Assembly (NCBI GenBank): GCA_028290705.1
Contig: JAQGJH010000147.1
Span: 1 to 52,013 of the forward strand
Direction: 5' to 3'
Length of the DNA: 52,013 bases
Source: Hyphomicrobiales bacterium
Lineage (GTDB): Bacteria; Pseudomonadota; Alphaproteobacteria; Rhizobiales; Beijerinckiaceae
Shown here piece by piece: positions 16,478 through 31,553 of the stretch. How positions within the stretch are numbered: position 1 is the stretch's first letter; each line of letters starts with the position of its first letter. A program made the position numbers and the translations under genes. The notes under the pieces are model-generated. The model saw nothing but the letters and a program-made list of their open reading frames with translations, was not told the origin of the DNA and searched no databases.

Positions 16478-17112
16478 GCGCCACGGCCGCGTTCGTCGTG
16501 ACAGGCACCGACACGGGCATCGGAAAGACGATGTTCTGCGCCGCACTCGCCGGGGCGTTGGGCGCGCATTACTGGAAGCCCGTGCAGTCCGGGCTCGATG
16601 CTGAGACGGACCGCGAGACGGTTGCGCGGCTGTCCGGCCTTCCTGCCGGGAACCTTCTGCCGGAGGCTTACCGTCTCTCATCCCCGCTTTCGCCTCACCG
16701 CTCCGCGGAGATCGACGGCGTTGCGATCTCGCGAGACGCGCTGCGACTGCCCGACGTTCGGCCGCTCGTGGTCGAGGGTGCGGGCGGGCTGATGGTCCCG
16801 CTGCGGCGCGACCTGCTGTTCATCGACATGTTCGTCGCATGGAACCTGCCGATGATCCTTTGTGCGCGCACGAGCCTCGGGACGATCAATCACACGCTCC
16901 TGTCGATCGAGGCTCTGCGACGCCGCGACGCTCCGTTACTCGGCGTGGCGTTCATCGGCGATGCCAACCCGGACAGCGAAGCCGCGATCGTCAATTTCGG
17001 CCAGACGCGCCGGCTCGGGAGATTGCCGCTGCTGAAAACGGTCGACGCCGACACGCTCGCGCGCGCCTTCTCGGATCATTTCGACATGCAGATGTTTGGG
17101 CCGGGCGCATGA
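16474..17112 (+). CDS. bioD: ATP-dependent dethiobiotin synthetase
   Basis: The 212-residue enzyme carboxylates 7,8-diaminopelargonate to dethiobiotin using ATP. The P-loop G-T-D-T-G-I-G-K-T spans residues 11-19, the substrate lysine is in W-K-P-V-Q-S-G, and the V-E-G-A-G-G-L-M-V-P-L motif is present near the middle. The length is slightly short of the usual 220-230 residues but nothing essential is missing. The gene overlaps both neighbours by four bases (ATGA). Confidence 0.95.
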   Translation: MSATAAFVVTGTDTGIGKTMFCAALAGALGAHYWKPVQSGLDAETDRETVARLSGLPAGNLLPEAYRLSSPLSPHRSAEIDGVAISRDALRLPDVRPLVVEGAGGLMVPLRRDLLFIDMFVAWNLPMILCARTSLGTINHTLLSIEALRRRDAPLLGVAFIGDANPDSEAAIVNFGQTRRLGRLPLLKTVDADTLARAFSDHFDMQMFGPGA

Positions 17113-18347
17113 GCCGTTCGCCGATCTGGCATCCCTTCACCCAGCATGCGCTGAGCCCCCCGCCGCTGAACATCGTGCGTGGCGAAGGCGCGTGGCTCGA
17201 GACGCGCGAAGGCGCGCGTCTCCTCGACATGATTTCGTCCTGGTGGGTGATCACGCATGGCCATCGGCATCCGCGCATCGTGCAGGCCATCAAGGACCAG
17301 GCGGATCGTCTCGACCAGGTCATCTTCGCGGGCTGCACACACGAGCCGGCCGAGGAACTGGCGCGCCGTCTCCTGGCGCGTGTGGGCGCGCCGCTGGCGC
17401 ATGTTTTCTATTCCGACAGCGGCTCGACGGCCGTCGAGGTCGCGTTGAAAATGGCGCTGGGCTATTGGCGCAACCGGGGCGAGACACGCACCAAGATTCT
17501 CGCGCTCGAACATTCCTATCACGGCGACACCGTGGGCACGATGTCGGCGGGCGCGCGCGGTCTGTTCAACGCCGCCTACGAGCCGCTTCTGTTCGACGTG
17601 ATCCGCATCCCCTTCCCGCAGGAAGGACACGAGAACGCGACACTCGACGCCATTCGAGCCCATCCCGACGCAGCCGCGCTGCTGGTCGAACCTCTCGTGC
17701 TGGGCGCGGGCGGCATGCTGGTCTATGCGCCCCAGGTGCTCGCCGACATGCGGGACGTCTGCCGAAAATCCGGCGCGCTCTTCATCGCCGACGAAGTCAT
17801 GACCGGCTTCGGCCGGACAGGCAGTTTCCTCGCGTGCGAGCAGGCCGGCATCGCGCCGGACATTCTGTGTCTCGCCAAAGGGATCACGGGCGGCTCGCTG
17901 CCGCTGGCCGCGACCCTTTGCATCCCGGAAATCTTCGATGCGCATTACTCCAGCGACCGTTCCAAGACCTTCTTCCACTCGAGTTCCTACACGGCCAATC
18001 CGATCGCCTGCGCGGCGGCTGTGGCCAATCTGGACGTGTGGGACAACGAGCCGGTCATCGAGCGCATCGGTGCGTTGACGGCCTGGCACCGTGAGATGCT
18101 CGAGCCGTTCCGCGCCGAGCCGCGCTTCGCGCGCGTCCGGCAGTGCGGGACCATCGCGGCCCTGGATCTGCGCGTGTCCGACGAGGGCTATCTTGCGGGC
18201 GTCGGGCCGGCGCTGATGGCGCAATTCATCGACAGGGGCTTCCTGATCCGGCCACTCGGCAACACGATCTACCTGATGCCGCCCTACGGGATCGGGAAAG
18301 ACGAACTCGCTGCAGCCTACGACGCCATTTCGCAGGTCACCGCATGA
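17109..18347 (+). CDS. bioA: Adenosylmethionine-8-amino-7-oxononanoate aminotransferase
   Basis: The 412-residue class III aminotransferase converts 8-amino-7-oxononanoate to 7,8-diaminopelargonate with S-adenosylmethionine as amino donor. It opens with I-W-H-P-F-T-Q, has S-S-W-W-V near residue 43 (BioA-specific aromatic site), H-S-Y-H-G-D at 135-140, D-E-V at 228-230 and the Schiff-base Lys257 in L-A-K-G-I-T-G-G. The start at 17109 gives an ATGA overlap with bioD and matches the family N-terminus; a longer in-frame reading upstream to 16839 lies inside bioD and was discarded. Confidence 0.95.
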   Translation: MSRSPIWHPFTQHALSPPPLNIVRGEGAWLETREGARLLDMISSWWVITHGHRHPRIVQAIKDQADRLDQVIFAGCTHEPAEELARRLLARVGAPLAHVFYSDSGSTAVEVALKMALGYWRNRGETRTKILALEHSYHGDTVGTMSAGARGLFNAAYEPLLFDVIRIPFPQEGHENATLDAIRAHPDAAALLVEPLVLGAGGMLVYAPQVLADMRDVCRKSGALFIADEVMTGFGRTGSFLACEQAGIAPDILCLAKGITGGSLPLAATLCIPEIFDAHYSSDRSKTFFHSSSYTANPIACAAAVANLDVWDNEPVIERIGALTAWHREMLEPFRAEPRFARVRQCGTIAALDLRVSDEGYLAGVGPALMAQFIDRGFLIRPLGNTIYLMPPYGIGKDELAAAYDAISQVTA

Positions 18348-19312
18348 GCACGCGGATCGTCGGTCTTGGCCACCATGCCCCGGAGCGCGTCGTGCGAAAC
18401 GACGAGATCGAGGCGCGGCTTGGTCTCGCGCCCGGATGGATTCTGGCCCGCGTCGGAATCGAGGAACGTCGCTATGCGCGTGCGGACGAGGCGCTGACCG
18501 ATCTCGCGTTCCCGGCCGCAGAACGGGCGCTTCAGGCCGCGGGGCGGCCCGACATCGGCTTCCTGCTTCTGGCGACGAGTACGCCCGATCACCTCCTGCC
18601 GCCATCGGCGCCGCTTCTGGCTCACAAGCTTGGCCTGACCTGCGGGGCGCTCGACGTCGCCGGGGCCTGCGCCGGCTTCCTGCACGCGCTGGTGCTGGCC
18701 GACGGTCTGGTGCGTACGAATGGCCGTGCCGTGCTCATCGTGGCGGCCAACATCCTCAGCCGACGCATCGATCCATCCGACCGTTCGACCTCGGCCCTGT
18801 TCGCGGACGCCGCCGGGGCGGTGGTGCTGTCGCCGTCGCCTGAGCCAGGGCACGGCGTCATCGGCGCGGATCTGGTTTCCGACGGCTCTGGTTACGACCT
18901 GATCCGCATCCCGGCGGGTGGCAGCCGCATGCCCTTCACGCAGGCCGCCTCCCCGGCCGACCTGTTCATGCAGATGCCGGACGGACGCGAGGTGTTCACC
19001 CGCGCGGTCGACACGATGGTGCGCACTTCCAGGACCGCGATGGAGTCGGCTGGCGTTCGGCCGGAAGCGGTCGAGCATTTCGTGCCCCACCAGGCGAATG
19101 CGCGGATCAGCGCCGCGGTCGAGCGCAGGCTGGGACTGAGGGCCGAGGCCTGCCTCTCGACGCTGTCGCATTTCGGCAATTCGTCCGCCGCGACCATTCC
19201 GTTCACATTGGCGCACGCCGCCGCGACCCGCGGCTACGCGCCGGGCGAGACGATGCTGTTCAGCGCCGTCGGGGCGGGTTTGTCGGGCGGCTCGGTGGTT
19301 TTCCGTTGGTGA
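18344..19312 (+). CDS. bioZ: Beta-ketoacyl-ACP synthase III-like pimeloyl precursor enzyme BioZ
   Basis: The 322-residue FabH-like protein has the complete Cys109-His249-Asn279 catalytic triad (G-A-C-A-G-F, V-P-H-Q-A-N, H-F-G-N-S-S). Its place as the fifth gene of a bioBFDA operon, with a four-base overlap with bioA, identifies it as BioZ rather than housekeeping FabH. In Agrobacterium, BioZ condenses glutaryl-CoA with malonyl-ACP to a five-plus-two carbon intermediate that is reduced to pimeloyl-ACP, replacing BioC/BioH. Whether the same substrate applies here is inferred from that work. No bioC or bioH is present in the window, which fits. Confidence 0.9.
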   Translation: MSTRIVGLGHHAPERVVRNDEIEARLGLAPGWILARVGIEERRYARADEALTDLAFPAAERALQAAGRPDIGFLLLATSTPDHLLPPSAPLLAHKLGLTCGALDVAGACAGFLHALVLADGLVRTNGRAVLIVAANILSRRIDPSDRSTSALFADAAGAVVLSPSPEPGHGVIGADLVSDGSGYDLIRIPAGGSRMPFTQAASPADLFMQMPDGREVFTRAVDTMVRTSRTAMESAGVRPEAVEHFVPHQANARISAAVERRLGLRAEACLSTLSHFGNSSAATIPFTLAHAAATRGYAPGETMLFSAVGAGLSGGSVVFRW

Positions 19313-19460
19313 CTGGCGGAACGGCTCTCCCGGCTCTGGAAATCGGCTCGAGGATGCCGCAGTGTGGAACGGGTTTCGCATGTCGTTGCGCGGCGCCCCC
19401 GGGGGCTGCCCCCTGCGTTTCGCCTCGTACAGGCGAGTTCCCAGACACGAGGATCGTGCC

Positions 19461-20531
19461 ATGAAGGGTCTTTTGAAGTATGCGCTCGCGGCTTTCGCGG
19501 CGGTTGGGTTTTCGGCGGCCGCGTCGGCGCAAGACAAATTGAAGGTCGGGTTCGTTTACGTCGGGCCGGTGGGCGATTTCGGCTATTCGTACCAGCATGA
19601 CCAGGGCCGCATCGCGATGCAGAAGGCGCTGGGTGACAAGGTCGAAACCACCTACCTCGAAAACGTCGCCGAGAACGACAGCGAGCGCGCCATCGAGCAG
19701 CTCGCGCGGTCCGGCCACCAGCTGATCTTCACCACGTCCTTCGGGTTCATGGAGCCGACGCTGCGCGTCGCCCGCAAGTTTCCGAAGGTCCGGTTCGAAC
19801 ATGCGACCGGCTTCAAGCGCGCCGCCAACGTGGCGACCTATTCGGCGCGCTTCTACGAAGGCCGCTACATCCTCGGCCAGATCGCCGGCAAAATGACCAA
19901 GAGCAACACGCTCGGCTATGTCGCGGCCTTCCCGATCCCGGAAGTGGTGTCGGGCATCAACTCGTTCTATCTCGGCGCGAAGTCGGTCAATCCGGACGTC
20001 AAGGTGAAGATCGTCTGGGCCAACACCTGGTTCGATCCGGGCAAGGAGGCGGACGCCGCCAAGGCGCTGATCGCCCAGGGCGCGGACATCATCAGCCAGC
20101 ACACCGACTCGGCCGCTCCCCTGCAGGAGGCCGAAAAGGGCGGCAAGTTCGCGTTCGGCCAAGCGTCGGACATGATCCGCTTCGCCCCCAAGGCGCAACT
20201 CACCTCCATCATCGACGACTGGAGCGGCTATTACATCGAGCGCGTGAAGGCGGCTCTGGCGGGAAGCTGGAAGTCCGACGACACGTGGGGCGGGCTGAAG
20301 TCCGGAATGGTCGTGATGGCGCCGTTCACCAACATGCCGGCTGACGTCAAGGACCTCGCGGAAAAGACCACGGCGTCCATCTCGGCCGGCACGCTCTTCC
20401 CCTTCGCCTGCCCGATCGTCGACCAGAGCGGCAAGACCGTCGAGTGCAAGGGCGGCAAGACCCTGTCGGACGAACAGATCCTCAGCATGAACTGGTACGT
20501 GCAGGGCATCGACGACAAGATCCCGCAGTAA
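19461..20531 (+). CDS. BMP family ABC transporter substrate-binding protein
   Basis: The 356-residue protein starts with a cleavable signal peptide (hydrophobic core about 7-20, A-S-A-Q-D cleavage region) and has the basic-membrane-protein fold: V-G-F-V-Y-V-G-P-V-G-D-F-G-Y near the mature N-terminus and later D-D-W-S-G-Y-Y. Relatives bind purine nucleosides or similar compounds in the periplasm. The ATG at 19461 was preferred over upstream in-frame starts because the signal peptide begins there and GAGG lies 8-11 bases upstream. No ATPase or permease gene follows, so it is an orphan receptor in this window. A hairpin terminator closes the gene. Confidence 0.88.
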   Translation: MKGLLKYALAAFAAVGFSAAASAQDKLKVGFVYVGPVGDFGYSYQHDQGRIAMQKALGDKVETTYLENVAENDSERAIEQLARSGHQLIFTTSFGFMEPTLRVARKFPKVRFEHATGFKRAANVATYSARFYEGRYILGQIAGKMTKSNTLGYVAAFPIPEVVSGINSFYLGAKSVNPDVKVKIVWANTWFDPGKEADAAKALIAQGADIISQHTDSAAPLQEAEKGGKFAFGQASDMIRFAPKAQLTSIIDDWSGYYIERVKAALAGSWKSDDTWGGLKSGMVVMAPFTNMPADVKDLAEKTTASISAGTLFPFACPIVDQSGKTVECKGGKTLSDEQILSMNWYVQGIDDKIPQ

Positions 20532-20553
20532 GCTTCGTCAAGCTTGGCGAAGA

Positions 20554-20580
20554 CGGCCCCGCGATCACCTCGCGGGGCCG
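20554..20580 (+). terminator. Hairpin terminator after BMP-family gene
   Basis: A perfect ten-base-pair stem (arms 20554-20563 and 20571-20580) encloses a seven-base loop and begins 23 bases after the stop codon. The stem is G+C-rich and is followed by a brief CTTTC tail, so termination is likely though the U tract is short. Confidence 0.65.
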
Positions 20581-20636
20581 CTTTCACGATCGGCCCTCAG
20601 CGGCGTCGCCGTGCCGGCGGGTCTCTTCCATTTGGG

Positions 20637-20666
20637 TTGTCAACGCGCCCCCGGAGCGGGTAGCTT
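20637..20666 (+). promoter_or_regulatory. Possible promoter of the dioxygenase gene
   Basis: TTGTCA at 20637-20642 matches the -35 consensus at five of six positions, and TAGCTT at 20661-20666 is a weak -10 after an 18-base spacer. It lies downstream of the BMP-gene terminator and about 40 bases before the dioxygenase start, so an independent promoter is expected in this stretch. The match is only moderate. Confidence 0.28.
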
Positions 20667-20703
20667 CTGGGGAGACAACAAGAATCCGAAATGGGAGGAC
20701 TAC

Positions 20704-21528
20704 ATGACTATTTCTGTGAAGCCGCTCGACGCCGCCTGCGGGGCCGAAGTGTCGGGACTGGACGTCCGCAACATTTCCGCGGAAGATTCCAAGGCTTTGC
20801 TCGACGCCTTCCTGAAGTATCACGTGCTGGTCGTGCATGGCCCGACGATCACCGACGACGAACTCGTCGAATTCGGCAAGTGCTTCGGCCCCATCGAGAA
20901 AGCGCGTGTGAAGTCGCCGCTCTCCGACCGCGACGACATCATGGTGATCTCCAACATCCGGCAGAACGGTGAGCTGGTGGGATCTTTGCCGGACGGAGAA
21001 ATGTCCTATCATTTCGACCGCATTCATCAGGCGCAGCCCTGCCTGGGCGCGGCGCTGCACGGCCTGGAGATTCCGCAGGAAGGCGGCGACACGCTGTTCG
21101 CCAACATGGTGCGAGCCTATGAGACGCTCCCGGAGAAGACCAAGCAGAAGCTCGAGGGTCTGAAAGCGCTCAACACGTTCACCTATGGGGCGACGAGCAA
21201 GGACGGAAAGCAGGCCGAAGCGGGTCCGCACGCCATCCATCCGGTGGTGCGCCGCATTCCCGAGACCGGGAAAAAATCACTCTATGTCTGCCGGCTGATG
21301 ACGGATCGCATCATCGACATGCCGGCGGACGAGAGCCGCGCGTTGATCGACGAGCTCTGCGACCACGTGGAGGCGACCGAACTGACCTACGCGCACAAAT
21401 GGAAAGTGGGCGACATCGTCGTCTGGGACAATCGCTGCACGAGCCATGCACGCACGGATTTCAGCGACAAGGAACGCCGCCTGATGAAGCGCGTCACCAT
21501 CGGGGACACGATGCCGCCCGTGCAGTGA
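20704..21528 (+). CDS. TauD/TfdA-family 2-oxoglutarate dioxygenase
   Basis: The 274-residue protein has the TauD/TfdA fold signature. It opens with the V-K-P-L-D-A-A-C-G-A-E-V-S-G-L strand, and an iron-binding H-x-D is seen as Y-H-F-D-R-I-H near residue 100. The distal part holds W-D-N-R-C-T-S-H-A-R-T-D-F, with the distal His ligand and the 2-oxoglutarate-binding Arg. Such enzymes hydroxylate small acids, sulfonates, herbicides or amino acids using Fe(II), O2 and 2-oxoglutarate; the substrate here cannot be told. The ATG at 20704 was chosen because GGGAGG lies eight bases upstream and the conserved N-terminal strand starts at once. Confidence 0.85.
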   Translation: MTISVKPLDAACGAEVSGLDVRNISAEDSKALLDAFLKYHVLVVHGPTITDDELVEFGKCFGPIEKARVKSPLSDRDDIMVISNIRQNGELVGSLPDGEMSYHFDRIHQAQPCLGAALHGLEIPQEGGDTLFANMVRAYETLPEKTKQKLEGLKALNTFTYGATSKDGKQAEAGPHAIHPVVRRIPETGKKSLYVCRLMTDRIIDMPADESRALIDELCDHVEATELTYAHKWKVGDIVVWDNRCTSHARTDFSDKERRLMKRVTIGDTMPPVQ

Positions 21529-21755: not shown

Positions 21756-22217
21756 ATGGCGCGCCTCAATATCAATGGAAAGATTCATGACGTCGAGGTT
21801 GAACCCGACACTCCGCTGCTTTGGGTGCTCCGCGAGCAGGTCGGGCTGACCGGCACGAAATACGGCTGTGGCGTCGCGGCCTGCGGCGCCTGCTCGGTTC
21901 ATGTCGACGGCGTCGTGACCCGCACCTGCACGATGCCGGTGAGCTCTTTCACGGCGGAACAGAAGATCGTCACGATCGAGGGTCTGTCCCCCGACGTTTC
22001 CCATCCGATCCAGAAAGCCTGGCTCGACCTCGACGTGCCGCAGTGCGGCTATTGCCAGTCCGGCCAGATCATGGCCGCTGCAGCGCTGCTCGCCGCCAAT
22101 CCGAATCCGAGCGACGCCGACATCAACGCAGAGATGTCGAACATCTGTCGTTGCGGCACCTACAATCGGATTCGCGCGGCCATCAAGCAGGCCGCCGACA
22201 CGACGAAGCGCGGCTGA
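21756..22217 (+). CDS. (2Fe-2S) subunit of molybdenum hydroxylase, IorA type
   Basis: The 153-residue small subunit carries both [2Fe-2S] clusters of the xanthine-oxidase family. Plant-type ferredoxin cysteines are at 38, 43, 46 and 58 ([11 protein letters not shown]), and the four-helix domain cysteines at 97, 100, 131 and 133 (Q-C-G-Y-C, C-R-C-G-T-Y). It passes electrons from the molybdenum cofactor in the adjacent large subunit. No FAD subunit gene is present, so electrons should leave through a cytochrome rather than NAD, as in isoquinoline 1-oxidoreductase and related aldehyde dehydrogenases. The ATG at 21756 was chosen for the GGGAGG just upstream. Confidence 0.92.
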
Positions 22218-22234
22218 ATTTCCGGGAGGATCAC

Positions 22235-24409
22235 ATGACGATTGCGCAGAATCTTTCGCGCCGCACTTTCCTCGCCGGCTCCGCTGCCGCGACGGGCGGC
22301 CTTTCACTCGGTTTCCACGTTCCCTTCGCGCAGGCGCAGGATGCGGCGACGACTCCGGAAATCAACGCCTGGGTGGTGATCAAGCCCGACGAGACGGTCG
22401 TGGTGCGCGTCGCCCGCGTCGAAATGGGCCAGGGCACGCTCACGGGTCTCGCCCAGCTCGTGGCCGAGGAACTCGACGCCGATTGGTCGAAGGTCACGAC
22501 CGAATATCCGACGCCCGGCCAGAACGTCGCGCGCAAGCGCATCTGGGGCGATTTCCAGACGGCCGGCAGCCGCGGTATTCGCGGGTCCGAGGATTACATG
22601 CGCAAGGGCGCGGTCGCGGCGCGGATGATGCTCGTCCAGGCCGCCGCCAATGAGTGGAAGGTGCCGGTCGGCGAGATCACGACCGCCAAGGGAGTCATCA
22701 CGCACAAGGGTTCGAACCGCACCACGACCTACGGCAAGGTCGCGGTCGCAGCCTCGAAGCTCGAAGCGCCGAAGGACGTGAAGCTTCGCGACCCGAAGGA
22801 CTGGACGATCGCCGGAAAGTCGGTGAAGCGTCTCGACACGGCCGAGAAGCTGAACGGCAAGCAGATCTACTCGATCGATCTGAAACTGCCGGGCATGCTC
22901 AACGCCGCGATCAAGGAAACGCCCTATCCGGGCGGCAAGGTGAAGAGCTTCGACGCCGCCAAGATCGAGAAGATGCCTGGCGTCAAGAAGGTGATGCAGC
23001 TCGAGGACACTGCCGTCGTGGTCGTCGCCGACACGTGGTGGCGCGCCAAGAACGCTCTGGATGCCTTGGAGATCGTGTGGGACGAGGGTCCGAACGCGAG
23101 CGTCTCGAGCGCGTCGATCGCCGCCATGCTGAAGGAAGGGCTCGACGCCAAGGAAGCCTTCGTGGGCAACAAGGCTGGCGACGTCGATGCGGCGCTGGCG
23201 GGCGCGGCCAAGAAGATCGAGGCCGTCTACAGCTATCCCTACCAGCACCACATGACCATGGAGCCGATGAACGCCACGGCTCAGTGGACACCCGAAAAGT
23301 GCATGGTCTGGACGGCGACGCAGAACGCCGAGGCCGCCCTCGCGACCGCGGTGGAAGCCGCGGGCCTGCCGCTCGACAAGTGTGACGTCACGCGTCTCAA
23401 CCTCGGCGGCGGTTTCGGCCGCCGCTCGTCGAGCCACGACTTCGTCAAGCAGGCCGTGCTGATCGCCAAGGAAATGCCCGGCACTCCGGTCAAGCTGATC
23501 TGGTCGCGCGAGCAGGACGTGCTGCACGGCACGTTCCATCCGACGACGCAGTGCAAGCTCGTCGGCGGTCTCGACGAGAAGGGCAACGTGACGGCGCTGC
23601 GCATGCGCATCTCGGGCCAGTCGATCCTGGCGGCGCTGCGCCCGCAGGCGCTGGTCAATGGTCGTGACCCGGCGCAATTCCAGGGCCTCAACGCCGAGGG
23701 TCCGGAAGGTCAGTTCGGGTATGAAATCCCGAACGTGCTGTTCGATCATGCGATGCGCAATCCGCCCTTCCGTCCGGGCTTCTGGCGCGGCGTGAACAAC
23801 AACCAGAACGCGATCTATCTGGAATGTTTCGTCGACGAGATGGCGCATGCGGCAGGTCAGGACCCGCTGGAATTCCGCCGGAAGATGATGGCGAAGTTCC
23901 CGAAACATCTCGCGGTTTTGAACACGGTCGCTGAGAAGGCGGGTTGGGGCAAGCCGGCGGCGCCGGGCGTCTATCGCGGCCTGGCCCAGCACATGGGCTA
24001 CGGCAGCTATGTGGCGGCCTGCGCGGAAGTGTCGGTCAGCGATGCGGGCGAGTTGAAGATCCACAGGATCGTAGCCTCGACCGATTGCGGACACGTCGTC
24101 AATCCGCAGCAGGTCGCGGCGCAGATTGAGGGCTCGTTCGCCTATGGACTGTCGGCGCTGCTGTTCGGCGAGATGACGGCCAAGAACGGCCGCATGGAGC
24201 AGGAGAACTTCGACACCTACGAAGTGGTGCGCATGGAGCACATGCCGGCCGTCGAATCCTACCCGATTCCGTCGGGCGGCTTCTGGGGCGGCGTCGGCGA
24301 GCCGACGATCTTCGTCGCCGCGCCGGCCGTGCTCAACGCCATCTTCGCGGCGACGGGCAAGCGCATCCGCGCCGTGCCGTTGAAGAACTCGGACCTGCGC
24401 AAGGCCTGA
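22235..24409 (+). CDS. Molybdopterin-binding subunit of xanthine dehydrogenase family, IorB type, Tat-exported
   Basis: The 724-residue large subunit starts with a twin-arginine signal (S-R-R-T-F-L at residues 8-13, then a hydrophobic stretch ending A-Q-A-Q), so the folded enzyme is exported with its partner subunit. Catalytic features include R-V-E-M-G-Q-G, G-G-G-F-G-R-R, and the C-terminal G-V-G-E-P that supplies the base glutamate of the family. The length and the lack of an FAD subunit match isoquinoline 1-oxidoreductase beta subunits and similar periplasmic aldehyde or N-heterocycle hydroxylases. It follows the small subunit by 17 bases with GGGAGGA before the start. The substrate is not known. 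The gene directly precedes a cytochrome c and sulfur-oxidation genes. Confidence 0.9.
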   Translation: MTIAQNLSRRTFLAGSAAATGGLSLGFHVPFAQAQDAATTPEINAWVVIKPDETVVVRVARVEMGQGTLTGLAQLVAEELDADWSKVTTEYPTPGQNVARKRIWGDFQTAGSRGIRGSEDYMRKGAVAARMMLVQAAANEWKVPVGEITTAKGVITHKGSNRTTTYGKVAVAASKLEAPKDVKLRDPKDWTIAGKSVKRLDTAEKLNGKQIYSIDLKLPGMLNAAIKETPYPGGKVKSFDAAKIEKMPGVKKVMQLEDTAVVVVADTWWRAKNALDALEIVWDEGPNASVSSASIAAMLKEGLDAKEAFVGNKAGDVDAALAGAAKKIEAVYSYPYQHHMTMEPMNATAQWTPEKCMVWTATQNAEAALATAVEAAGLPLDKCDVTRLNLGGGFGRRSSSHDFVKQAVLIAKEMPGTPVKLIWSREQDVLHGTFHPTTQCKLVGGLDEKGNVTALRMRISGQSILAALRPQALVNGRDPAQFQGLNAEGPEGQFGYEIPNVLFDHAMRNPPFRPGFWRGVNNNQNAIYLECFVDEMAHAAGQDPLEFRRKMMAKFPKHLAVLNTVAEKAGWGKPAAPGVYRGLAQHMGYGSYVAACAEVSVSDAGELKIHRIVASTDCGHVVNPQQVAAQIEGSFAYGLSALLFGEMTAKNGRMEQENFDTYEVVRMEHMPAVESYPIPSGGFWGGVGEPTIFVAAPAVLNAIFAATGKRIRAVPLKNSDLRKA

Positions 24410-24411
24410 CC

Positions 24412-24759
24412 GTGACAATGGCCGGGCGTGCATCGACGGTTTTGGGAGCGAGCGTTCTGGCGCTCGTCTCCCTGGCCGGCGCGCTCGCACAAACGCCGGC
24501 GGCTCCGACATCCGGAGCCGCCGCATTCATCACCTCTCCCCCGGGCGCGACGGCCTGCCTCGGCTGCCATGGCCCCGAGGCCACGGCCCTGCCCTCCCTT
24601 GCGCGTCTGTCGGCCCGTGACATCGAGACCGCGCTGGCGGAATTCCGTGAAGACAAGCGCGAACCGACCCTGATGAACCGCATCGCCAAGGGTTTCACCG
24701 CCGAAGAGAGCAAGGCGATCGCGGAATGGCTCGCGGCTCATGCGGGGAAAGCGCCATGA
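24412..24759 (+). CDS. Small monohaem cytochrome c, sulfide dehydrogenase cytochrome-like
   Basis: This 115-residue protein has a signal peptide (hydrophobic core about 10-24, cleavage near A-L-A-Q), one haem-binding C-L-G-C-H at about 49-53 and a likely distal Met in P-T-L-M-N-R. It resembles one half of the dihaem FccA/SoxE subunit of flavocytochrome c. It sits between the molybdenum hydroxylase and the FccB-like flavoprotein and could accept electrons from either. The GTG at 24412 has AAGG seven bases upstream; the ATG at 24418 is an alternative start. The stop overlaps the next ATG. Confidence 0.82.
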
Positions 24760-26021
24760 TCTCAGCGCCGACACGCAGGCATGTGCTGGCCGGGGCGGCT
24801 GCGCTCGCGGTGACGCCGATGGTTCGCCCAGCCTCTGCGCAAGCGAGCGCGCGAGTGGTGGTCATCGGCGGCGGTTTTGCGGGCGCGACCTGCGCGCGCA
24901 AACTCCACCGCGCCGGCTTGAAGGTGACGCTGGTCGAGCCGTCCGCGTCGTATATTTCCTGTCCGTTCAGCAATGCCGTCCTGGGCGGCTTGCGCGAGCT
25001 GAAGGACCAGACGTTCACATACGAAGCTCTGGTGCGCGAGGGCATCGCGCTCGCGCCGATCGAGGCGAAGGCGATCGACGGCGACGCCCGGCGCGTCACG
25101 CTCGGAGACGGCGCGTCCCTGCCCTACGACCGCCTCATCCTCGCACCCGGCATCGACATCCGGTTCGATGGATTGCAGGGTTACGATCAGGCCGCCAGCG
25201 AGGTGCTTCCGCATGCCTGGAAGGCCGGTCCGCAAACCAGCTTGCTGCGGCGACAACTCGAGGCGATGGACGATGGCGGCACGGTCGTCATCTCGGCTCC
25301 GAACAATCCATTCCGCTGCCCGCCCGGCCCTTACGAGCGGGCAAGTTTGATCGCCCATTACCTGAAAACCCACAAGCCTCGCTCGAAGGTGCTGATTCTC
25401 GACGCCAAGGATGCGTTTTCCAAGCAGAGCCTGTTCACGGCCGCCTGGAAGGAGCTTTACGGCGAGATGATTGAGTGGGTGGGGCTTTCGGCCGGCGGCA
25501 AGGTCACGGAAGTCGACCCGGGGTCCAAAACGTTCATCACCGAATTCGGCAAGCACCGTGCCGACGTCGGCAACGTCATTCCGCCCCAGCGCGCGGGCGC
25601 CATCGCGGTGACTTCGGGCATCGCCGACCAGACCGGCTGGTGCCCCATCGATCCGGTGACTTTCGAGGCACGGCAGCACGCCGGCATCCACGTCATCGGC
25701 GATGCGGCCATCGCGGGTGGCATGCCGAAATCCGCCTTTTCGGCGAACGCGCAAGGCAAGGCCTGCGCGCAAGCCGTGACGCTGATGCTGCGCGGAGAAG
25801 CGCCGCCCTCGCCGAAATTGATCAACAGCTGCTATTCGCTTGTGGCGCCGGACTATGGGATTTCCGTTGCAGGCGTCTACCAGCCCGCCAAAGGCCTGCT
25901 GGCCGACGTGGCGGGAGCCGGCGGCGTCAGCGCCGCCAAGGCGCCGGCCTCCGTGCGGGCGGCCGAGGCCTCCTATGCCGAAGCCTGGTTCAAGACGATC
26001 ACGCATGATGTTTTCGGTTGA
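24756..26021 (+). CDS. fccB: Flavocytochrome c sulfide dehydrogenase flavoprotein (FccB/SoxF)
   Basis: The 421-residue protein has an N-terminal export signal with T-R-R-H-V-L at about 6-11 (Tat-like), then a [13 protein letters not shown] motif. The three cysteines expected of FccB are present: Cys69 in Y-I-S-C-P-F-S-N (covalent FAD attachment in Allochromatium FccB), and Cys188 ([10 protein letters not shown]) and Cys296 (G-W-C-P-I), which form the redox disulfide at the sulfide site. It should oxidise sulfide or polysulfide in the periplasm and pass electrons to the cytochrome c encoded just before it. ATGA overlaps join it to the cytochrome, and its end overlaps soxX by 17 bases. Confidence 0.9.
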
Positions 26022-26496
26022 TCGCCCTGCCCTCGCTCTGGCGTCGCTGCTGCTTTCGGCGGGCTGCGCTTTTGCGGAGGATCCCGCGCGCTACGTCATC
26101 GAGAACGGCGCCATTGCGTCCCCGCTGACAGGTCAACCAGGGGATCCCGCCCGAGGCCGCAAGATCGTAGCGGAACGCCAGAAGGGACTCTGCCTGCTCT
26201 GCCATCAGGGGCCGTTTCCCGAGGAGCGCTTCCAGGGCGATCTCGCGCCAACGCTGGCTGGGGCCGGATCGCGCCTGAGCGAAGGCGAGTTGAGGCTGCG
26301 GCTGGTGGATGGCACGAAAGTGAACCCGGAGACGATCATGCCGTCCTATTATCGCACCGATCATCTTCAGCGCGTGCCTCCGGCTTTTGCGGGGCGCACG
26401 CTTCTGACCGCGGCAGAAATCGAAGACGTGGTCGCCTTCCTGTCGACGCTTCGCGACGAAGCCAAGGCGGGCAACCCGTCCAAGGAGGCGAAATGA
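26005..26496 (+). CDS. soxX: Sulfur oxidation c-type cytochrome SoxX
   Basis: The 163-residue protein has a signal peptide (hydrophobic core about 9-23), a single haem site C-L-L-C-H at 63-67, and the distal ligand Met112 in T-I-M-P-S-Y-Y, the characteristic SoxX motif. It pairs with SoxA to attach sulfur substrates oxidatively to the SoxY cysteine. The start is one of two tandem ATGs at 26005 and 26008, inside the end of fccB. It overlaps soxY by four bases. Confidence 0.93.
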
Positions 26497-26960
26497 ACGG
26501 TACACCAGGTCCGTCGTTGCTGACGCGCCGGCAGGCTCTCGCGACTGCGGCCGGCGGACTCGTGCTCGTGGTCGCGCGGCCGGCGCGCGCCACGCCCGAA
26601 GCGATGCAGGATGTCATCCGCACGTTCACGGGCGGCGCCAAGGTCACGGAAGGACGCGTCAAACTCGACGTGACGCTTCTGGTCGAGAACGGCAATTCGG
26701 TTCCCCTGAGCGTCAGCGTGGACAGCCCGATGACGGCGGCGGATCACGTCGTTCGCATCGGCGTGTTCAATGAGAAGAACCCTTTGCCGGACGTGGCGAT
26801 CTTCAATCTGACGCCGCGCTGCGGGCGGGCCACGGCGGCGACGCGCATCCGGCTCAACGATACGCAGATGATCACCGCCATCGCGCAGATGAAGGACGGC
26901 TCTTTCTGGTCCGACACCAGCGAGGTCATCGTCACCCTGCCTGCTTGCGTGGAGGGCTGA
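26493..26960 (+). CDS. soxY: Sulfur-carrier protein SoxY with unusual C-terminus
   Basis: The 155-residue protein begins with a Tat-like signal (T-R-R-Q-A-L at 11-16 plus a hydrophobic stretch) followed by the SoxY immunoglobulin-like domain (V-K-L-D-V-T-L-L-V-E-N-G and V-P-L-S-V-S-V-D-S-P-M are recognisable). SoxY carries sulfur intermediates on a cysteine of a flexible C-terminal arm, classically GGCGG. Here the arm ends L-P-A-C-V-E-G: the cysteine is kept at position 152, four from the end, but the flanking glycines are mostly lost. A second cysteine sits near residue 110. It is co-encoded with soxZ, two bases downstream. Confidence 0.92.
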   Translation: MNGTPGPSLLTRRQALATAAGGLVLVVARPARATPEAMQDVIRTFTGGAKVTEGRVKLDVTLLVENGNSVPLSVSVDSPMTAADHVVRIGVFNEKNPLPDVAIFNLTPRCGRATAATRIRLNDTQMITAIAQMKDGSFWSDTSEVIVTLPACVEG

Positions 26961-26962
26961 AC

Positions 26963-27283
26963 ATGGCGCGCGCATTGATCAACGTTCCGTCCAAGGCCAA
27001 GCGCGGTGACGTCGTCGAGATCAAGACGTTGATGTCGCATCCGATGGAAACCGGGTTCCGCACGGGCAGCGACGGGGCGCTGGTTCCGCGCAACATCATC
27101 AGCCGCTTCGCCTGCACCTATAATGGCGAAGTGGTTTTCAGCGCGGAACTGTTCCCGGCGATCTCGGCCAATCCGTTCATCTCCTTCACGACGGTCGCGA
27201 CGGAGAGCGGCACGCTCGTGTTCAGCTGGACGGATGACAAGGGGCAGACGCAGGTGCAGACCGCCGCCATCACCGTGGAATGA
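26963..27283 (+). CDS. soxZ: Sulfur-carrier complex subunit SoxZ
   Basis: The 106-residue protein has no signal peptide, as is usual because SoxZ is exported as a complex with Tat-carried SoxY. The family pattern is clear: A-K-R-G-D-V-V-E-I-K-T-L-M-S-H-P-M-E-T-G-F and the later F-S-A-E-L-F-P-A-I-S-A-N-P-F block. It starts two bases after the soxY stop and overlaps soxA by four bases (ATGA). Confidence 0.95.
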   Translation: MARALINVPSKAKRGDVVEIKTLMSHPMETGFRTGSDGALVPRNIISRFACTYNGEVVFSAELFPAISANPFISFTTVATESGTLVFSWTDDKGQTQVQTAAITVE

Positions 27284-28083
27284 CCATGGGTGGGCGCGCG
27301 TCGGCGTTTCTCTTGGTGGGCTTCGCCGCTCTTGGGCTCGGCCTGGCAAGCCTGTCCGCGCAGACCGCCGATGCGCCGCCATCGGACCGGAAGTCGGGCT
27401 TCGACTATATGGGGCCGGACAGCCAGGCGATGCAGAAGGACGACCTGTCCAATCCCGGCATGCTCGGCGTGCTCGATGGCGAAGCCATGTGGAATGCGCC
27501 GGCGGGCACGACGCAGAAGTCCTGCGCCGCCTGCCATGGCGATGCGCGCGAGAGCATGAAGGGCGTGGCGGCGAAATATCCCCTGCTCGACGAAGCGACC
27601 AAGACGCCGATTGATCTCGTGGGGCGGATCGACCAGTGCCGGGTGGACCGGCAACAGGCTGCGGCACTGCCGCGAGAGGGCCGCGAGAGTTTGGCGTTGA
27701 CGGCGTTTGTCGGCCTCCAATCGCGCGGCATGCCTCTGGCGCCCCCAGACGACGCGAGGCTCACCCCGTTCCGCAAAGCCGGCGAAGCGCTGTATACGCG
27801 GCGGATGGGGCAGCTCAACTTCTCCTGCGCGCAATGCCACGACGACAATGCGGGCGGCCACCTGGGCTCCGCGCCGATCCCGCAGGCACATCCGACCGGG
27901 TACCCGATCTACCGGCTGGAATGGCAGAGCCTCGGCTCGCTTCAACGGCGGCTGCGCAACTGCATGGTGGGCACGCGCGCCGAGCCTTTCGCCTATGGCT
28001 CACCCGAGTTCATCAATCTCGAGCTCTACCTCAACTGGCGCGCGCGCGGCATGGAAGTCGAGACGCCGGGGGTGCGTCCGTGA
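27280..28083 (+). CDS. soxA: Dihaem c-type cytochrome SoxA
   Basis: The 267-residue protein has an N-terminal signal peptide and two haem sites, C-A-A-C-H at 82-86 and C-A-Q-C-H at 183-187, so it is the dihaem form. Cys120 (D-Q-C-R) is a likely axial thiolate of the first haem, and Cys228 (R-N-C-M-V-G-T-R-A-E-P-F) is the active-site cysteine/persulfide ligand of the second haem. With SoxX it forms the enzyme that conjugates thiosulfate or similar to SoxYZ. It is the last gene of the sulfur block; no soxB, soxC or soxD follows. Confidence 0.95.
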   Translation: MTMGGRASAFLLVGFAALGLGLASLSAQTADAPPSDRKSGFDYMGPDSQAMQKDDLSNPGMLGVLDGEAMWNAPAGTTQKSCAACHGDARESMKGVAAKYPLLDEATKTPIDLVGRIDQCRVDRQQAAALPREGRESLALTAFVGLQSRGMPLAPPDDARLTPFRKAGEALYTRRMGQLNFSCAQCHDDNAGGHLGSAPIPQAHPTGYPIYRLEWQSLGSLQRRLRNCMVGTRAEPFAYGSPEFINLELYLNWRARGMEVETPGVRP

Positions 28084-29094: not shown

Positions 29095-29252
29095 GCCTCT
29101 GTGTCCCGCGAGGCACAGGCATGTTTCCATTTCCCGCACTACCCATTTGGGCCGGTCTGTGGCAGTCATGCCGCATGGGCTGGCGCTGGGCGGGATCGAA
29201 ATCCTGCCGCGCCGACAAGAGCCTCCTCTTTCCAGGAAACGCAGGGTTGCAC

Positions 29253-30287
29253 ATGAACGTCCGAATTGCCCTTCTCGCCGGCGTCGCGGGTCTCGTTGGC
29301 GGGCTGGCCAGCCACTCCGCCGCCGCGCAGCAGTCGGTGGAAGCCTTCTACAAGGGTAAGCAGATCGAATTCGTCATCGGCTATACGCCGGGCGGCGGCT
29401 ACGACACCTATGCGCGCATCGTCGCCAAGCACATGACGCGCTTCATCCCCGGCAACCCCAACATCGTGGCGCGCAACATGCCGGGCGGCGGCAGCCGCGT
29501 GGCCGCCAATTTCGTCTATCGCGTCGCCCCGAAGGACGGCACGATTCTGGCGACGGCCGATCAGTCGCTTTCGCTGCAGCAGGCGGTCGGCGACAAGACC
29601 ATCCAGTTCGACACGACCAAGTTCAACTACATCGGCAATCCGAGCGCCGAAAACAACGTGACGGCCGTCTGGCACACGTCGGGCATCAAGACCATCGAAG
29701 ACGCAATGAAGCAGGAAGTGCCCATGGGCGCGACCGGCGGCTCGACGTCCTCACAATACCCGAAGGCGATGAACGCGCTGCTCGGCACGAAATTCAAGAT
29801 CATCCTGGGCTATCCGGGTGGCAACGACATCAATCTCGCGATGGAGAAGGGTGAAGTCGCAGGCCGTGGTTCGAACAGCTGGGCGTCCTACAAGGCGACG
29901 CGTCCCGACTGGCTGCGGGACAAGAAGATCAACATGCTGGTCCAGATCGGCCTGACCAAGGCGCCTGACCTTCCCGACGTGCCGCTGCTGATCGATCTGG
30001 CCAAGAACGAGGCCGATCGCGCGGTGCTGCGCATGCTCTCCGCCCCAGCGACGATCGGCCGCCCGATCTTCACCACCCCGGACGTGCCTGCCGAGCGCGT
30101 CAAGGCGCTGCGCGACGCGTTCGACCAGGCCATGAAAGATCCGGCTTTCATCGAGGACGCCAAGAAGGCCGCCCTCGAACTCGATCCCGTGTCGGGCGAA
30201 GAGCTGCAGAAGATCGTTCAGGAAATCATCGCCACACCGAAGGAAACGGCCGATCGACTGGCCGAAATCATCGGCGAACTGAAATAA
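29253..30287 (+). CDS. Tripartite tricarboxylate transporter receptor (Bug/TctC family)
   Basis: The 344-residue protein has a signal peptide (about 1-25, ending A-A-A-Q-Q) and the Bug fold marks: F-V-I-G-Y-T-P-G-G-G-Y-D near the mature N-terminus, R-N-M-P-G-G-G-S and V-A-P-K-D-G-T. Bug receptors bind carboxylated aromatics, dicarboxylates or similar in the periplasm. No TctA/TctB membrane genes are present, which is common for this family. The start at 29253 was chosen by the signal peptide; an upstream in-frame start at 29121 would add an unlikely leader. It is followed 36 bases later by a bicupin gene, so the receptor may deliver or sense its substrate. Confidence 0.9.
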   Translation: MNVRIALLAGVAGLVGGLASHSAAAQQSVEAFYKGKQIEFVIGYTPGGGYDTYARIVAKHMTRFIPGNPNIVARNMPGGGSRVAANFVYRVAPKDGTILATADQSLSLQQAVGDKTIQFDTTKFNYIGNPSAENNVTAVWHTSGIKTIEDAMKQEVPMGATGGSTSSQYPKAMNALLGTKFKIILGYPGGNDINLAMEKGEVAGRGSNSWASYKATRPDWLRDKKINMLVQIGLTKAPDLPDVPLLIDLAKNEADRAVLRMLSAPATIGRPIFTTPDVPAERVKALRDAFDQAMKDPAFIEDAKKAALELDPVSGEELQKIVQEIIATPKETADRLAEIIGELK

Positions 30288-30323
30288 TCAACAGCCGAAC
30301 CATCCCGCGCGAAGGAGATTCAC

Positions 30324-31553
30324 ATGCCGCATGATCCCGACGACAAGACACAGCATTGGCACGAACCCGCGGGAACGCGGAAGGCCGGCTTCGGCGAGTT
30401 CAAGAAGCAGCCGACCCCCTACGACGCGTGGATGGAATCGGAAGGCATTCCGACCTTCCGGGGCATCGGCATCAGCAAGGTTCAGAACCTGCCGCTGTTC
30501 GACTGGAAGCGTCGCGGCGGAAAGGGCCACTTCATCCAGCTCTACGGCACGGAAACGAAGTGGGGCTGCTACGTCGTGGAAGTGCCGCCCGGTGGCGCGC
30601 TGAACCCCGAGAAGCACATGTACGAGGAGATCTTCCTCGTGGTGGAAGGCCGCGGCACGACGGAAGTCTGGCAGGAAGGCGACACCAAGAAGCACGTCTT
30701 CGAATGGCAGGCCGGCTCGATGTTCTCGATCCCGATGAACGCCTGGTATCGGCTCGTCAATGCGACCTCGGGCGGCGCGCTGCTGCTCGCCGGCACGACG
30801 GCGCCGAACGTTCTCAACCAGCTCAACAACGTCGAAGCGGTGTTCAACAACCCCTTCGTGTTCCGCGACCGCTTCAACGGTGACGAAGACTTCTTCAAGC
30901 CGAAGGACGAGATCTCGCCCGATCCGGTGCGCGGTCTGGCGCAGCGCAAGACGAACTTCATCCCGGACGTCATCAATTGCGAGCTGCCGCTCGACAACCG
31001 GCGTTCGGTCGGCTACCGCCGCGTCGAGCCCTCCATGACGAACAATGCGTTCTATTACTGGATCGGCCAGCCCGAGAACGGCCGTTATTCCAAGGGTCAC
31101 GCGCATACGTCGGCCGCGATCCTGATCTGCCTGAAGGGCAAGGGTTATACCTACAGCTGGCCCGAGCGCTGCGGCGAGACGCCGTGGAAGGATGGCTTTG
31201 CCGATCAGGTCAATCGCCTCGACTACGAGCCGGTGGGACTCGTGACGGCGGCGCCCGGCGGCGCGCGCTGGTATCACCAGCACTTCAGCGTGTCGAAGGA
31301 AGATTTCCGCCTGACGGCCTGGTTCGGCCCGCACAATCCGGGTCGCGATCCCGGCGCGCCCGGCGAGAAGCACACCGACTATACGGCGATCGACGTCAAC
31401 CAGGGCGGCACCGCGATTCCCTATTGGATGGAAGATCCCTACATCCGCCAGGAATATGAGGAAACGCTGCGCCAGAACGGCGTGCCGTGCCGCATGGATC
31501 CGAAATGGTACGAGAAATCGGCCGACGCGGACACCAAGAAGGAAGTGGTCTGA
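30324..31553 (+). CDS. Bicupin domain protein of unknown function
   Basis: The 409-residue protein has two cupin barrels. The first, about residues 70-155, contains a N-P-E-K-H-M-Y-E-E-I-F-L-V-V-E-G-R-G metal-site pattern. The second, about 240-335, contains G-H-A-H-T-S-A-A-I-L-I-C-L-K-G-K-G. A His-rich metal site in both halves suggests a metalloenzyme, such as a ring-cleaving dioxygenase or decarboxylase-like protein, but I recognise no specific subfamily. It has no signal peptide and so is cytoplasmic. It lies behind a Bug receptor and a LysR gene, as in small aromatic or organic-acid catabolic units, and ends in a strong terminator. Confidence 0.8.
   Translation: MPHDPDDKTQHWHEPAGTRKAGFGEFKKQPTPYDAWMESEGIPTFRGIGISKVQNLPLFDWKRRGGKGHFIQLYGTETKWGCYVVEVPPGGALNPEKHMYEEIFLVVEGRGTTEVWQEGDTKKHVFEWQAGSMFSIPMNAWYRLVNATSGGALLLAGTTAPNVLNQLNNVEAVFNNPFVFRDRFNGDEDFFKPKDEISPDPVRGLAQRKTNFIPDVINCELPLDNRRSVGYRRVEPSMTNNAFYYWIGQPENGRYSKGHAHTSAAILICLKGKGYTYSWPERCGETPWKDGFADQVNRLDYEPVGLVTAAPGGARWYHQHFSVSKEDFRLTAWFGPHNPGRDPGAPGEKHTDYTAIDVNQGGTAIPYWMEDPYIRQEYEETLRQNGVPCRMDPKWYEKSADADTKKEVV

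Follow-up and report, generated by a model that had tools for sequence, protein, structure and literature searches.

A SoxB-independent sox operon linked to a molybdenum hydroxylase in Hyphomicrobiales and other proteobacteria

Organization of the Locus

The stretch of DNA analyzed here, 52,013 nucleotides of contig JAQGJH010000147.1 (our C15) from the Hyphomicrobiales bacterium assembly GCA_028290705.1, is referred to as the window. It carries an eight-gene operon at positions 21756-28083 of the forward strand, in which the two subunits of a xanthine-oxidase-family molybdenum (Mo) hydroxylase precede a flavocytochrome c sulfide dehydrogenase and the sulfur-oxidation proteins SoxX, SoxY, SoxZ, and SoxA. 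A comparison of this operon with loci from related and distant genomes indicates that it almost certainly belongs to a distinct, SoxB-independent, and widespread class of Sox locus. The genes lie head to tail and were named using Pfam and NCBIfam models:

21756..22217, + strand: MoFeS, the 2Fe-2S subunit of a xanthine-oxidase-family Mo hydroxylase (IorA/AldH-type); Pfam Fer2 and Fer2_2
22235..24409, + strand: MoCo, the molybdopterin-binding subunit, with a Tat-type signal (SRRTFL); MoCoBD_1 and MoCoBD_2
24412..24759, + strand: FccA-like monoheme cytochrome c subunit; one CxxCH, structure match 5n1t_B
24756..26021, + strand: FccB/SoxF, the flavoprotein of flavocytochrome c sulfide dehydrogenase, with a Tat-type signal; FCSD_central and FCSD-flav_bind
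26008..26496, + strand: SoxX, the monoheme cytochrome of SoxXA; TIGR04485, no Pfam match
26493..26960, + strand: SoxY', a sulfur carrier in which the arm PACVEG replaces GGCGG; TIGR04487
26940..26957, + strand: codons of the SoxY' C-terminal arm, P-A-C-V-E-G, diagnostic against thiosulfate SoxY when arm type is set against neighboring genes
26963..27283, + strand: SoxZ, the partner of SoxY'; TIGR04490
27280..28083, + strand: SoxA, the diheme catalytic cytochrome of SoxXA, with active-site Cys228; TIGR04484

An earlier note on this DNA, made from the letters and reading frames only, had read eight same-strand genes as a unit, in which successive genes from the cytochrome through SoxA either overlap or are separated by no more than two bases. 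The Pfam and NCBIfam matches bear out the coordinates and identities, and the spacings measured in gene order (+17, +2, -4, -14, -4, +2, and -4 bases) agree. Neither SoxB nor SoxCD is among the eight operon genes, and Pfam and NCBIfam found no sulfite-oxidase-family gene there.

Distribution and Linkage of the Carrier Arm

The carrier is the most telling component. It matches TIGR04487, the ‘SoxY-related AACIE arm protein’, with 202 bits (above the cut-off of 172) and stays below the cut-off of the true SoxY model TIGR04488 (98 bits against 125). Its C-terminus, LPACVEG, is an xACxE-type arm, and the GGCGG arm of the classical carrier is absent; we refer to this protein as SoxY' and to its pair with SoxZ as SoxYZ'.

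Matches to TIGR04487 above the cut-off came from 56 of 298 family-level genomes, 28 of 397 at the level of the order, and 16 of 397 at that of the phylum (overlapping sets). Regions of up to 19 kb were fetched for 55 of the 56 family matches (the 56th being the window) and five matches below the cut-off, for 17 of the 24 new order-level matches and three below the cut-off, and for 12 further order or phylum matches, four of them above it. To these were added, as controls, 20 below-cut-off regions picked by score, whose arms were not known beforehand, and the best 80 of 565 named relatives, of which 76 are titled Bradyrhizobium and four by order, class, or family only. Together with the window and a second contig of the source genome (C61, described below), this gave 194 loci. 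Three contigs had been entered twice (L124/L160, L122/L191, and L127/L200), leaving 191 distinct loci and reducing the Mo-linked loci and all loci with an xACx-type arm from 158/170 to 155/167; residue-conservation and raw part counts on the 158 Mo-linked loci include the three duplicates. A gene was called a neighbor within 6 kb and, for the Mo subunit, also on the same strand.

The arm divides these loci sharply. It reads xACx, or in one case ASCLE, in 167 distinct loci, of which 155 have the Mo subunit beside the carrier and none has SoxB; conversely, the 24 loci with a GGCGG arm all have SoxB, and none has the Mo subunit. With the named-genome loci excluded, the Mo subunit adjoins 82 of 90 xACx carriers as against 0 of 24 GGCGG carriers. 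Ten of the 12 xACx loci that lack it have a contig end within 1.9 kb upstream, and the two true exceptions (L044 and L053) come from genomes with the Mo enzyme on another contig (G256 and G228, respectively), so the enzyme is present in 155 of the 157 distinct loci with room upstream. Among the best 80 of 565 named relatives, the Mo subunit lies beside the carrier in 76, and the other four are cut upstream. Sampling is uneven, with more than 80 loci being Bradyrhizobium-like, and the Mo-linked loci span 28 genus and 10 family labels (counted by hand), one family (f111, with genomes of 1.7-2.1 Mb) lying outside the class. The same gene order is kept in two classes. At 155 of 167 distinct loci, the adjacency of the Mo and Sox genes is far beyond chance. 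The linkage proposed from the window holds in related and distant genomes. A full soxB-soxCD set adjoining the block had been named as evidence to the contrary; no SoxB was near any of the 167 loci.

The operon of G228 is split, with the Mo pair, cytochrome, and FccB on one contig (L240) and SoxXYZA on another (L053); ahead of the Mo half, inspection by eye shows a PQQ-type dehydrogenase.

SoxB in the Source Genome and Its Relatives

The source genome (3.02 Mb in 148 contigs, 73.9% complete) also encodes classical Sox proteins. Its contig C61, a separate contig that may or may not adjoin C15 in the chromosome, carries SoxB (849 bits, cut-off 550) and SoxC (631.7 bits, cut-off 420), with a true SoxY (151.6 bits, cut-off 125) and SoxZ nearby. 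The organism therefore has the central genes of a classical sox cluster in addition to the eight-gene operon, which is a second and separate one. The absence of SoxB and SoxCD claimed in the earlier note holds for the operon, but not for the genome, where SoxB, SoxC, and true SoxYZ are found on C61. At the end of C61, near the classical sox genes (L004, 13847-14203), is a partial YedE/YeeE-like frame with 23.8 bits to NF033796, perhaps a SoxT-type transporter.

Across the survey, SoxB (E up to 1e-80) occurs in 34 of the 80 genomes with a SoxY' locus, a set that includes five family-level and two order-level genomes below the TIGR04487 cut-off. Among the 72 of good quality (at least 90% complete and at most 5% contaminated), SoxB is present in 31, and none was found in 41 at the same threshold, supporting the independence of this operon class from SoxB. 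SoxC-family proteins occur in 46 of the 80 genomes, a number that probably includes unrelated sulfite dehydrogenases. SoxB is encoded away from the operon in the Bradyrhizobium-type genomes searched (genus label g77).

Features of the Protein Components

Mo hydroxylase. Among solved structures, the Mo subunit is closest to 8gy3_C, an aldehyde dehydrogenase large subunit, with 258.6 bits and an alignment that spans residues 4-723 of 724. The enzyme has what the xanthine-oxidase family of Mo hydroxylases requires, namely MoCoBD domains, eight 2Fe-2S cysteines, and a conserved glutamate: the eight cluster cysteines are kept in all 153 aligned copies from the 158 Mo-linked loci, and Glu689, which from the family we take to be the catalytic glutamate, in 157 of 157. 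Export signals had been proposed for every product of the operon except SoxZ, and this fails for the 2Fe-2S subunit, which has none at its likely start (MARLNINGK..., preceded by GGGAGGG); it is probably exported together with the Mo subunit, which bears the Tat-type signal. AldH carries a membrane-bound multiheme cytochrome subunit. No such dedicated subunit is present in the unit, where the FccA-like monoheme protein is the only cytochrome besides SoxX and SoxA.

The Mo subunit is more widely distributed than its Sox partners, with matches (E up to 1e-200) in 97 of the 298 family genomes. Twenty Mo pairs were picked for lacking the Sox half; 17 of these are clean and three are doubtful, L239 and L241 being cut by contig ends and L240 retaining the cytochrome and FccB. 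In a tree of Mo subunits that includes the three doubtful loci, the unlinked copies are scattered among the Sox-linked ones, giving seven label changes, at least five of which are forced by well-supported branches. A residue signature of the Sox-linked Mo enzymes was sought and rejected, with only two positions special to them.

Flavocytochrome c. The parts of a flavocytochrome c sulfide dehydrogenase are present, that is, FccB with its cysteines and a heme subunit. FccB is closest to 5n1t_A (468.5 bits) among solved structures, and Cys69, Cys188, and Cys296, presumably with FAD-linking and redox roles, are invariant where aligned (134, 136, and 136 copies, respectively). The small cytochrome finds its best solved match in the flavocytochrome c cytochrome subunit 5n1t_B (40.3 bits). 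Among the 155 distinct Mo-linked loci, 71 have both FccB and the cytochrome, 61 have FccB only (all from Bradyrhizobium or near relatives), 22 have neither, and the remaining one (L140) has FccB relocated to behind SoxA, so that FccB lies near 133 of the 155. In none of the 22 FccB-less loci was the cytochrome found. Since it matches 5n1t_B and never occurs without FccB in the Mo-linked loci, it most likely serves FccB as the heme-bearing partner in sulfide dehydrogenase and is not the electron exit of the Mo enzyme. The idea that all enzymes of the operon drain to one c-type cytochrome is not supported, as this cytochrome is FccA-like and missing in 83 or 84 of the 155 loci. Similarly, sulfide oxidation by FccB is unlikely to be an obligatory source of the carried sulfur, for FccB is missing in 22 of the 155 while SoxX, SoxY, and SoxZ stay. 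In the Bradyrhizobium-like loci L123 and L124, FccB has diverged far beyond the rest of the operon, as if exchanged; one of the two has the cytochrome and the other does not.

SoxX, SoxY', SoxZ, and SoxA. SoxX scores 73.5 bits with TIGR04485 (cut-off 61) and 86.7 bits with 1h31_B; SoxZ scores 101 bits with TIGR04490 (cut-off 76); and SoxA scores 215 bits with TIGR04484 (cut-off 110) and 157 bits with 1h31_A. SoxXA retains the active-site cysteine and hemes of classical Sox: the SoxX CxxCH is found in 158 of 158 loci, SoxA Cys228 in 152 of 153 aligned copies, and the heme motifs of both proteins in every aligned copy. The arm cysteine of SoxY', Cys152, is likewise present in 158 of 158. The near invariance of the SoxXA cysteine, the hemes, and the arm cysteine indicates that disulfide chemistry is under selection. 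The full trio of SoxX, SoxZ, and SoxA accompanies the carrier in 154 of the 158 Mo-linked loci; of the other four, L151 is cut and L038, L040, and L042 lack SoxA. Cys51 of SoxZ was considered as a mark of the class and rejected, being also present in 12 of 24 classical SoxZ proteins.

Three side observations concern individual loci. In L072, L073, L090, and L091, the gene next to SoxA encodes, by eye, a DsbA-like thiol protein of the periplasm that could hold SoxY' in its reduced form; a second Mo hydroxylase lies downstream in L042; and the SoxY' match of L115/L135 (genome G525) contains one in-frame TGA.

Phylogeny, Selection, and Order of Dependence

In FastTree phylogenies of SoxX, SoxY, and SoxZ, the Mo-linked and SoxB-linked proteins part at a single branch, with support of 99, 97, and 98, respectively; the SoxA tree calls for two changes and is still compatible with one. 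These small proteins offer few columns, and the usable classical rows were 16 of 24 for SoxX and 23 of 24 for SoxA. Distances between Mo subunits correlate with those between SoxY' proteins (r 0.77 over 80 loci, with 0 of 999 permutations as high), as expected of co-inherited genes, with the shared ancestry of the hosts supplying part of the correlation. The ratio of nonsynonymous to synonymous substitution rates (dN/dS) lies between 0 and 0.32 for every computable gene in 17 close locus pairs; two values in L242/L243 are saturated, and four of the pairs lack FccB or SoxA. Selection is thus purifying, and decay is disfavored.

Within the unit, the dependence is nested: the Mo pair comes first, then SoxXYZ(A), then FccB, and then the cytochrome. 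This order suggests a pathway whose first and constant step would be the Mo enzyme.

Relation to Known Systems

The arrangement itself has been published before, for a single species: the second sox cluster of Starkeya novella, soxX2Y2Z2A2F2, was described in 2013 together with a xanthine-oxidase-family Mo enzyme and without SoxB or SoxCD (Snov_1975-1982; PMC3797975). By that description it has the same parts as the operon in the window, and the order of its locus tags fits the eight-gene order, with two tags for the SoxF-like flavocytochrome; the likeness rests on the description and not on a protein comparison. The available text deals with a single species and contains no survey or arm analysis. 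According to the same text, transcripts of this cluster were very low on glucose, methanol, or thiosulfate, and one SoxF2 subunit was detected at a low level, except on glucose; duplicate sox genes are discussed there as thiosulfate isoenzymes or as functionless (PMC3797975).

In Bradyrhizobium diazoefficiens, only soxY1 of the two soxY genes was essential for thiosulfate oxidation (PMC5748708). The soxY2 locus of Bradyrhizobium is a probable counterpart of the operon: the Mo subunit lies beside the carrier in 76 of the best 80 of 565 relatives, and soxY2 is dispensable for thiosulfate. A 2010 report on four Bradyrhizobium sox loci is said to have found that a soxY2 mutant behaved like the wild type. 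Sox genes of Polynucleobacter were noted in 2012 to resemble those of Bradyrhizobium (PMC3308952). In SAR324 bacteria, flavocytochrome c is described next to a SoxY and a SoxZ that have no further sox genes with them, an arrangement that may be related to the Mo-Sox class (PMC4782131).

The classical Sox system shares with the operon the SoxXA catalytic residues and the carrier cysteine; here, by contrast, SoxB and SoxCD are lacking, the GGCGG arm is replaced, and the proteins form a separate Sox lineage tied to a Mo hydroxylase. The periplasmic aldehyde dehydrogenase (IorAB/AldH, 8gy3) matches the Mo subunit over nearly its full length and likewise has a 2Fe-2S subunit and a Tat-type signal; the operon differs from it in having adjoining Sox genes and no membrane cytochrome subunit. 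A third comparison is with the ped cluster of Pseudomonas, where a fused SoxYZ-like carrier lies beside a periplasmic alcohol dehydrogenase and a SoxH-type hydrolase (excerpt of PMC12997753). Both are SoxYZ-like carriers adjoining an organic dehydrogenase, but that of the ped cluster is fused and accompanied by the SoxH-type hydrolase, and the excerpt names no SoxXA; here, SoxY' and SoxZ are two genes and fall far below the cut-off of 140 for the fused quinoprotein-associated model TIGR04557 (54.8 and 47.1 bits, respectively). The existence of the TIGR04487 model means that NCBI curators already knew the carrier family. In the open-licence literature, we found no prior survey of the Mo-Sox linkage or use of the SoxY arm as a divider from SoxB clusters. 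What is new is therefore the recognition of a widespread SoxB-independent class with a diagnostic arm.

Neighboring Genes

A shared flanking gene that might reveal the substrate was sought and rejected, as no transporter or catabolic gene recurs in most of 87 loci. Methanethiol was likewise dismissed as a source: the PF05694 methanethiol oxidase occurs in 18 of 298 family genomes, four of which have the operon (G093, G189, G202, and G291), about the overlap expected by chance given roughly 78 operon carriers among the 298 (counted by hand).

In the window, the regions on either side of the operon (19362-21528 and 29121-31553) encode a Bmp-type binding protein, a TauD-family dioxygenase, a TctC-type receptor, and a cupin protein. 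The TauD and cupin genes stay beside it in L075, L080, L081, and L087 (83-84% and 90-91% identity), with TctC in two of these; among 60 family loci, such TauD and cupin neighbors were found in the close relatives of the window only. TauD-type sulfonate dioxygenases can yield an aldehyde and sulfite. Such products would fit the operon, but the flanking TauD scores equally against phenoxypropionate dioxygenases. Further upstream (14344-19312) is a biotin-synthesis set by Pfam, perhaps bioB-bioF-bioA-bioZ, made up of a radical SAM protein with a BATS domain, class I/II and class III aminotransferases, and a FabH-like synthase.

Proposed Mechanism and Alternatives

We favor, with a probability of about 0.37, a reading in which the Mo enzyme oxidizes an organosulfur or aldehyde-type compound at its carbon and the sulfur product is loaded by SoxXA onto the arm of SoxYZ'. 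The oxidation would be the first step and would take place in the periplasm, the compound being aldehyde-like or heterocyclic, with sulfur either in the molecule or alongside it. SoxXA would then link the sulfur-bearing product as a disulfide to Cys152 of SoxY', and FccAB, where present, would oxidize the sulfide or sulfane sulfur set free, with electrons leaving to general c-type cytochromes. Thiosulfate would not be the main substrate, and the SoxY' branch would have no release of sulfate by SoxB. Thiosulfate is disfavored because B. diazoefficiens requires soxY1 and not soxY2 for its oxidation (PMC5748708) and because the S. novella cluster is poorly expressed on thiosulfate (PMC3797975). 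An organosulfur or aldehyde-type substrate, close to the organosulfur or heterocyclic one suggested in the earlier note, is the best idea available. The more specific proposition that SoxYZ' carries a carbon-containing sulfur adduct on its xACxE arm, with the Mo hydroxylase oxidizing that adduct in place of SoxB and SoxCD in alphaproteobacteria and at least one other proteobacterial class, strikes us as rather doubtful.

Several results weigh against a functional coupling of this kind. At 224 positions conserved in Sox-linked Mo subunits, a comparison that counts the doubtful loci L239, L240, and L241 among the unlinked copies finds 186 equally conserved in the latter and two special to the former; the Mo enzyme therefore probably performs the same chemistry with or without Sox, making direct contact with SoxYZ' less likely. 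That the Mo enzyme may make a compound that SoxXA then loads is left open by the comparison. The related loci L038, L040, and L042 keep SoxX, SoxY', and SoxZ without SoxA behind SoxZ, and no Mo subunit (E up to 1e-200) was found in the family genomes G053, G127, and G199, in which the SoxY' locus runs into a contig end. The gene cluster that recurs most widely beyond the operon itself is present in 17 of 87 loci and has the look of a shadow frame. The bearing of the B. diazoefficiens result assumes that its soxY2 is an xACxE carrier, as the genus suggests. Finally, the S. novella study states that SoxAX2 and SoxYZ2 proteins were undetected in all conditions tested, and its authors suggest that the cluster may have no functional significance or be relevant under other conditions (PMC3797975).

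The alternative that fares best does without contact between the two halves. An upstream enzyme encoded elsewhere would split an organosulfur compound to yield an aldehyde and sulfide, the Mo enzyme would clear the aldehyde, SoxXA, SoxYZ', and FccAB would clear the sulfide, and only regulation would be shared. The near identity of the Mo enzyme whether Sox-linked or not and its aldehyde-dehydrogenase relative are consistent with such a division of labor, as are the integrity of FccB and its cysteines where present and the location of the two halves on different contigs in G228. Independent halves should part more often, however, and the Sox genes are apart from the Mo enzyme in only two of 157 loci (L044 and L053), both from genomes that encode the enzyme elsewhere. 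Moreover, FccB is missing in 22 of 155 loci, and methanethiol oxidase, the sole upstream enzyme tested, co-occurs with the operon at chance level. We consider this explanation somewhat unlikely.

A second alternative holds that the operon is an isoenzyme set for sulfide or thiosulfate, that the main sox cluster provides SoxB and SoxCD in trans, and that the Mo enzyme is a hitch-hiker. The source genome, with SoxB, SoxC, and true SoxYZ on C61, is of the kind expected, as are the 34 of 80 SoxY' genomes that have SoxB, but 41 of 72 good genomes lack it. A hitch-hiking Mo enzyme is also hard to reconcile with its presence in 155 of 157 loci, and a role alongside SoxB with the latter's position beside 0 of 167 xACx carriers as against 24 of 24 GGCGG carriers. 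Together with the dispensability of soxY2 for thiosulfate oxidation in B. diazoefficiens and the scant expression of the S. novella cluster on thiosulfate, these counts make an isoenzyme role unlikely.

Less probable still is a service role, in which SoxXA and SoxYZ', with FccAB, would form a periplasmic persulfide relay restoring the labile sulfido ligand of Mo after export. Sulfurases of the XdhC type are cytoplasmic and allow no repair once the Mo cofactor has been exported. A relay would account for the one-way dependence, whereby the Sox genes go with the Mo enzyme and the latter survives without them, and genes resembling XdhC, ModE, or MoaA adjoin the operon in L133, L246, and L248 (by eye, with no profile confirmation). 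Yet exported Mo hydroxylases manage without Sox, including 17 close relatives, and the sulfide dehydrogenase would be left unexplained; we know of no periplasmic relay of this kind. Lastly, a functionless relic, as proposed for S. novella from the undetected SoxAX2 and SoxYZ2 proteins and very low transcripts (PMC3797975), is highly improbable given the nearly invariant catalytic residues, the dN/dS of at most 0.32 in 17 pairs, and the gene order kept in two classes.

Biological Significance

A soxY or soxA match alone invites the label of sulfur oxidizer. Across the loci surveyed, the SoxY arm separates two systems with different partners, and an xACxE-type SoxY should therefore not be taken to show thiosulfate oxidation. 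The linkage of the carrier to a Mo hydroxylase points to a second use of the Sox sulfur carrier. If the coupling we favor is functional, the operon would allow organic sulfur or aldehydes to feed periplasmic electron transport in Bradyrhizobium and other proteobacteria, and its SoxYZ' would join the fused SoxYZ encoded with quinoproteins as a second Sox carrier at the service of an organic dehydrogenase.

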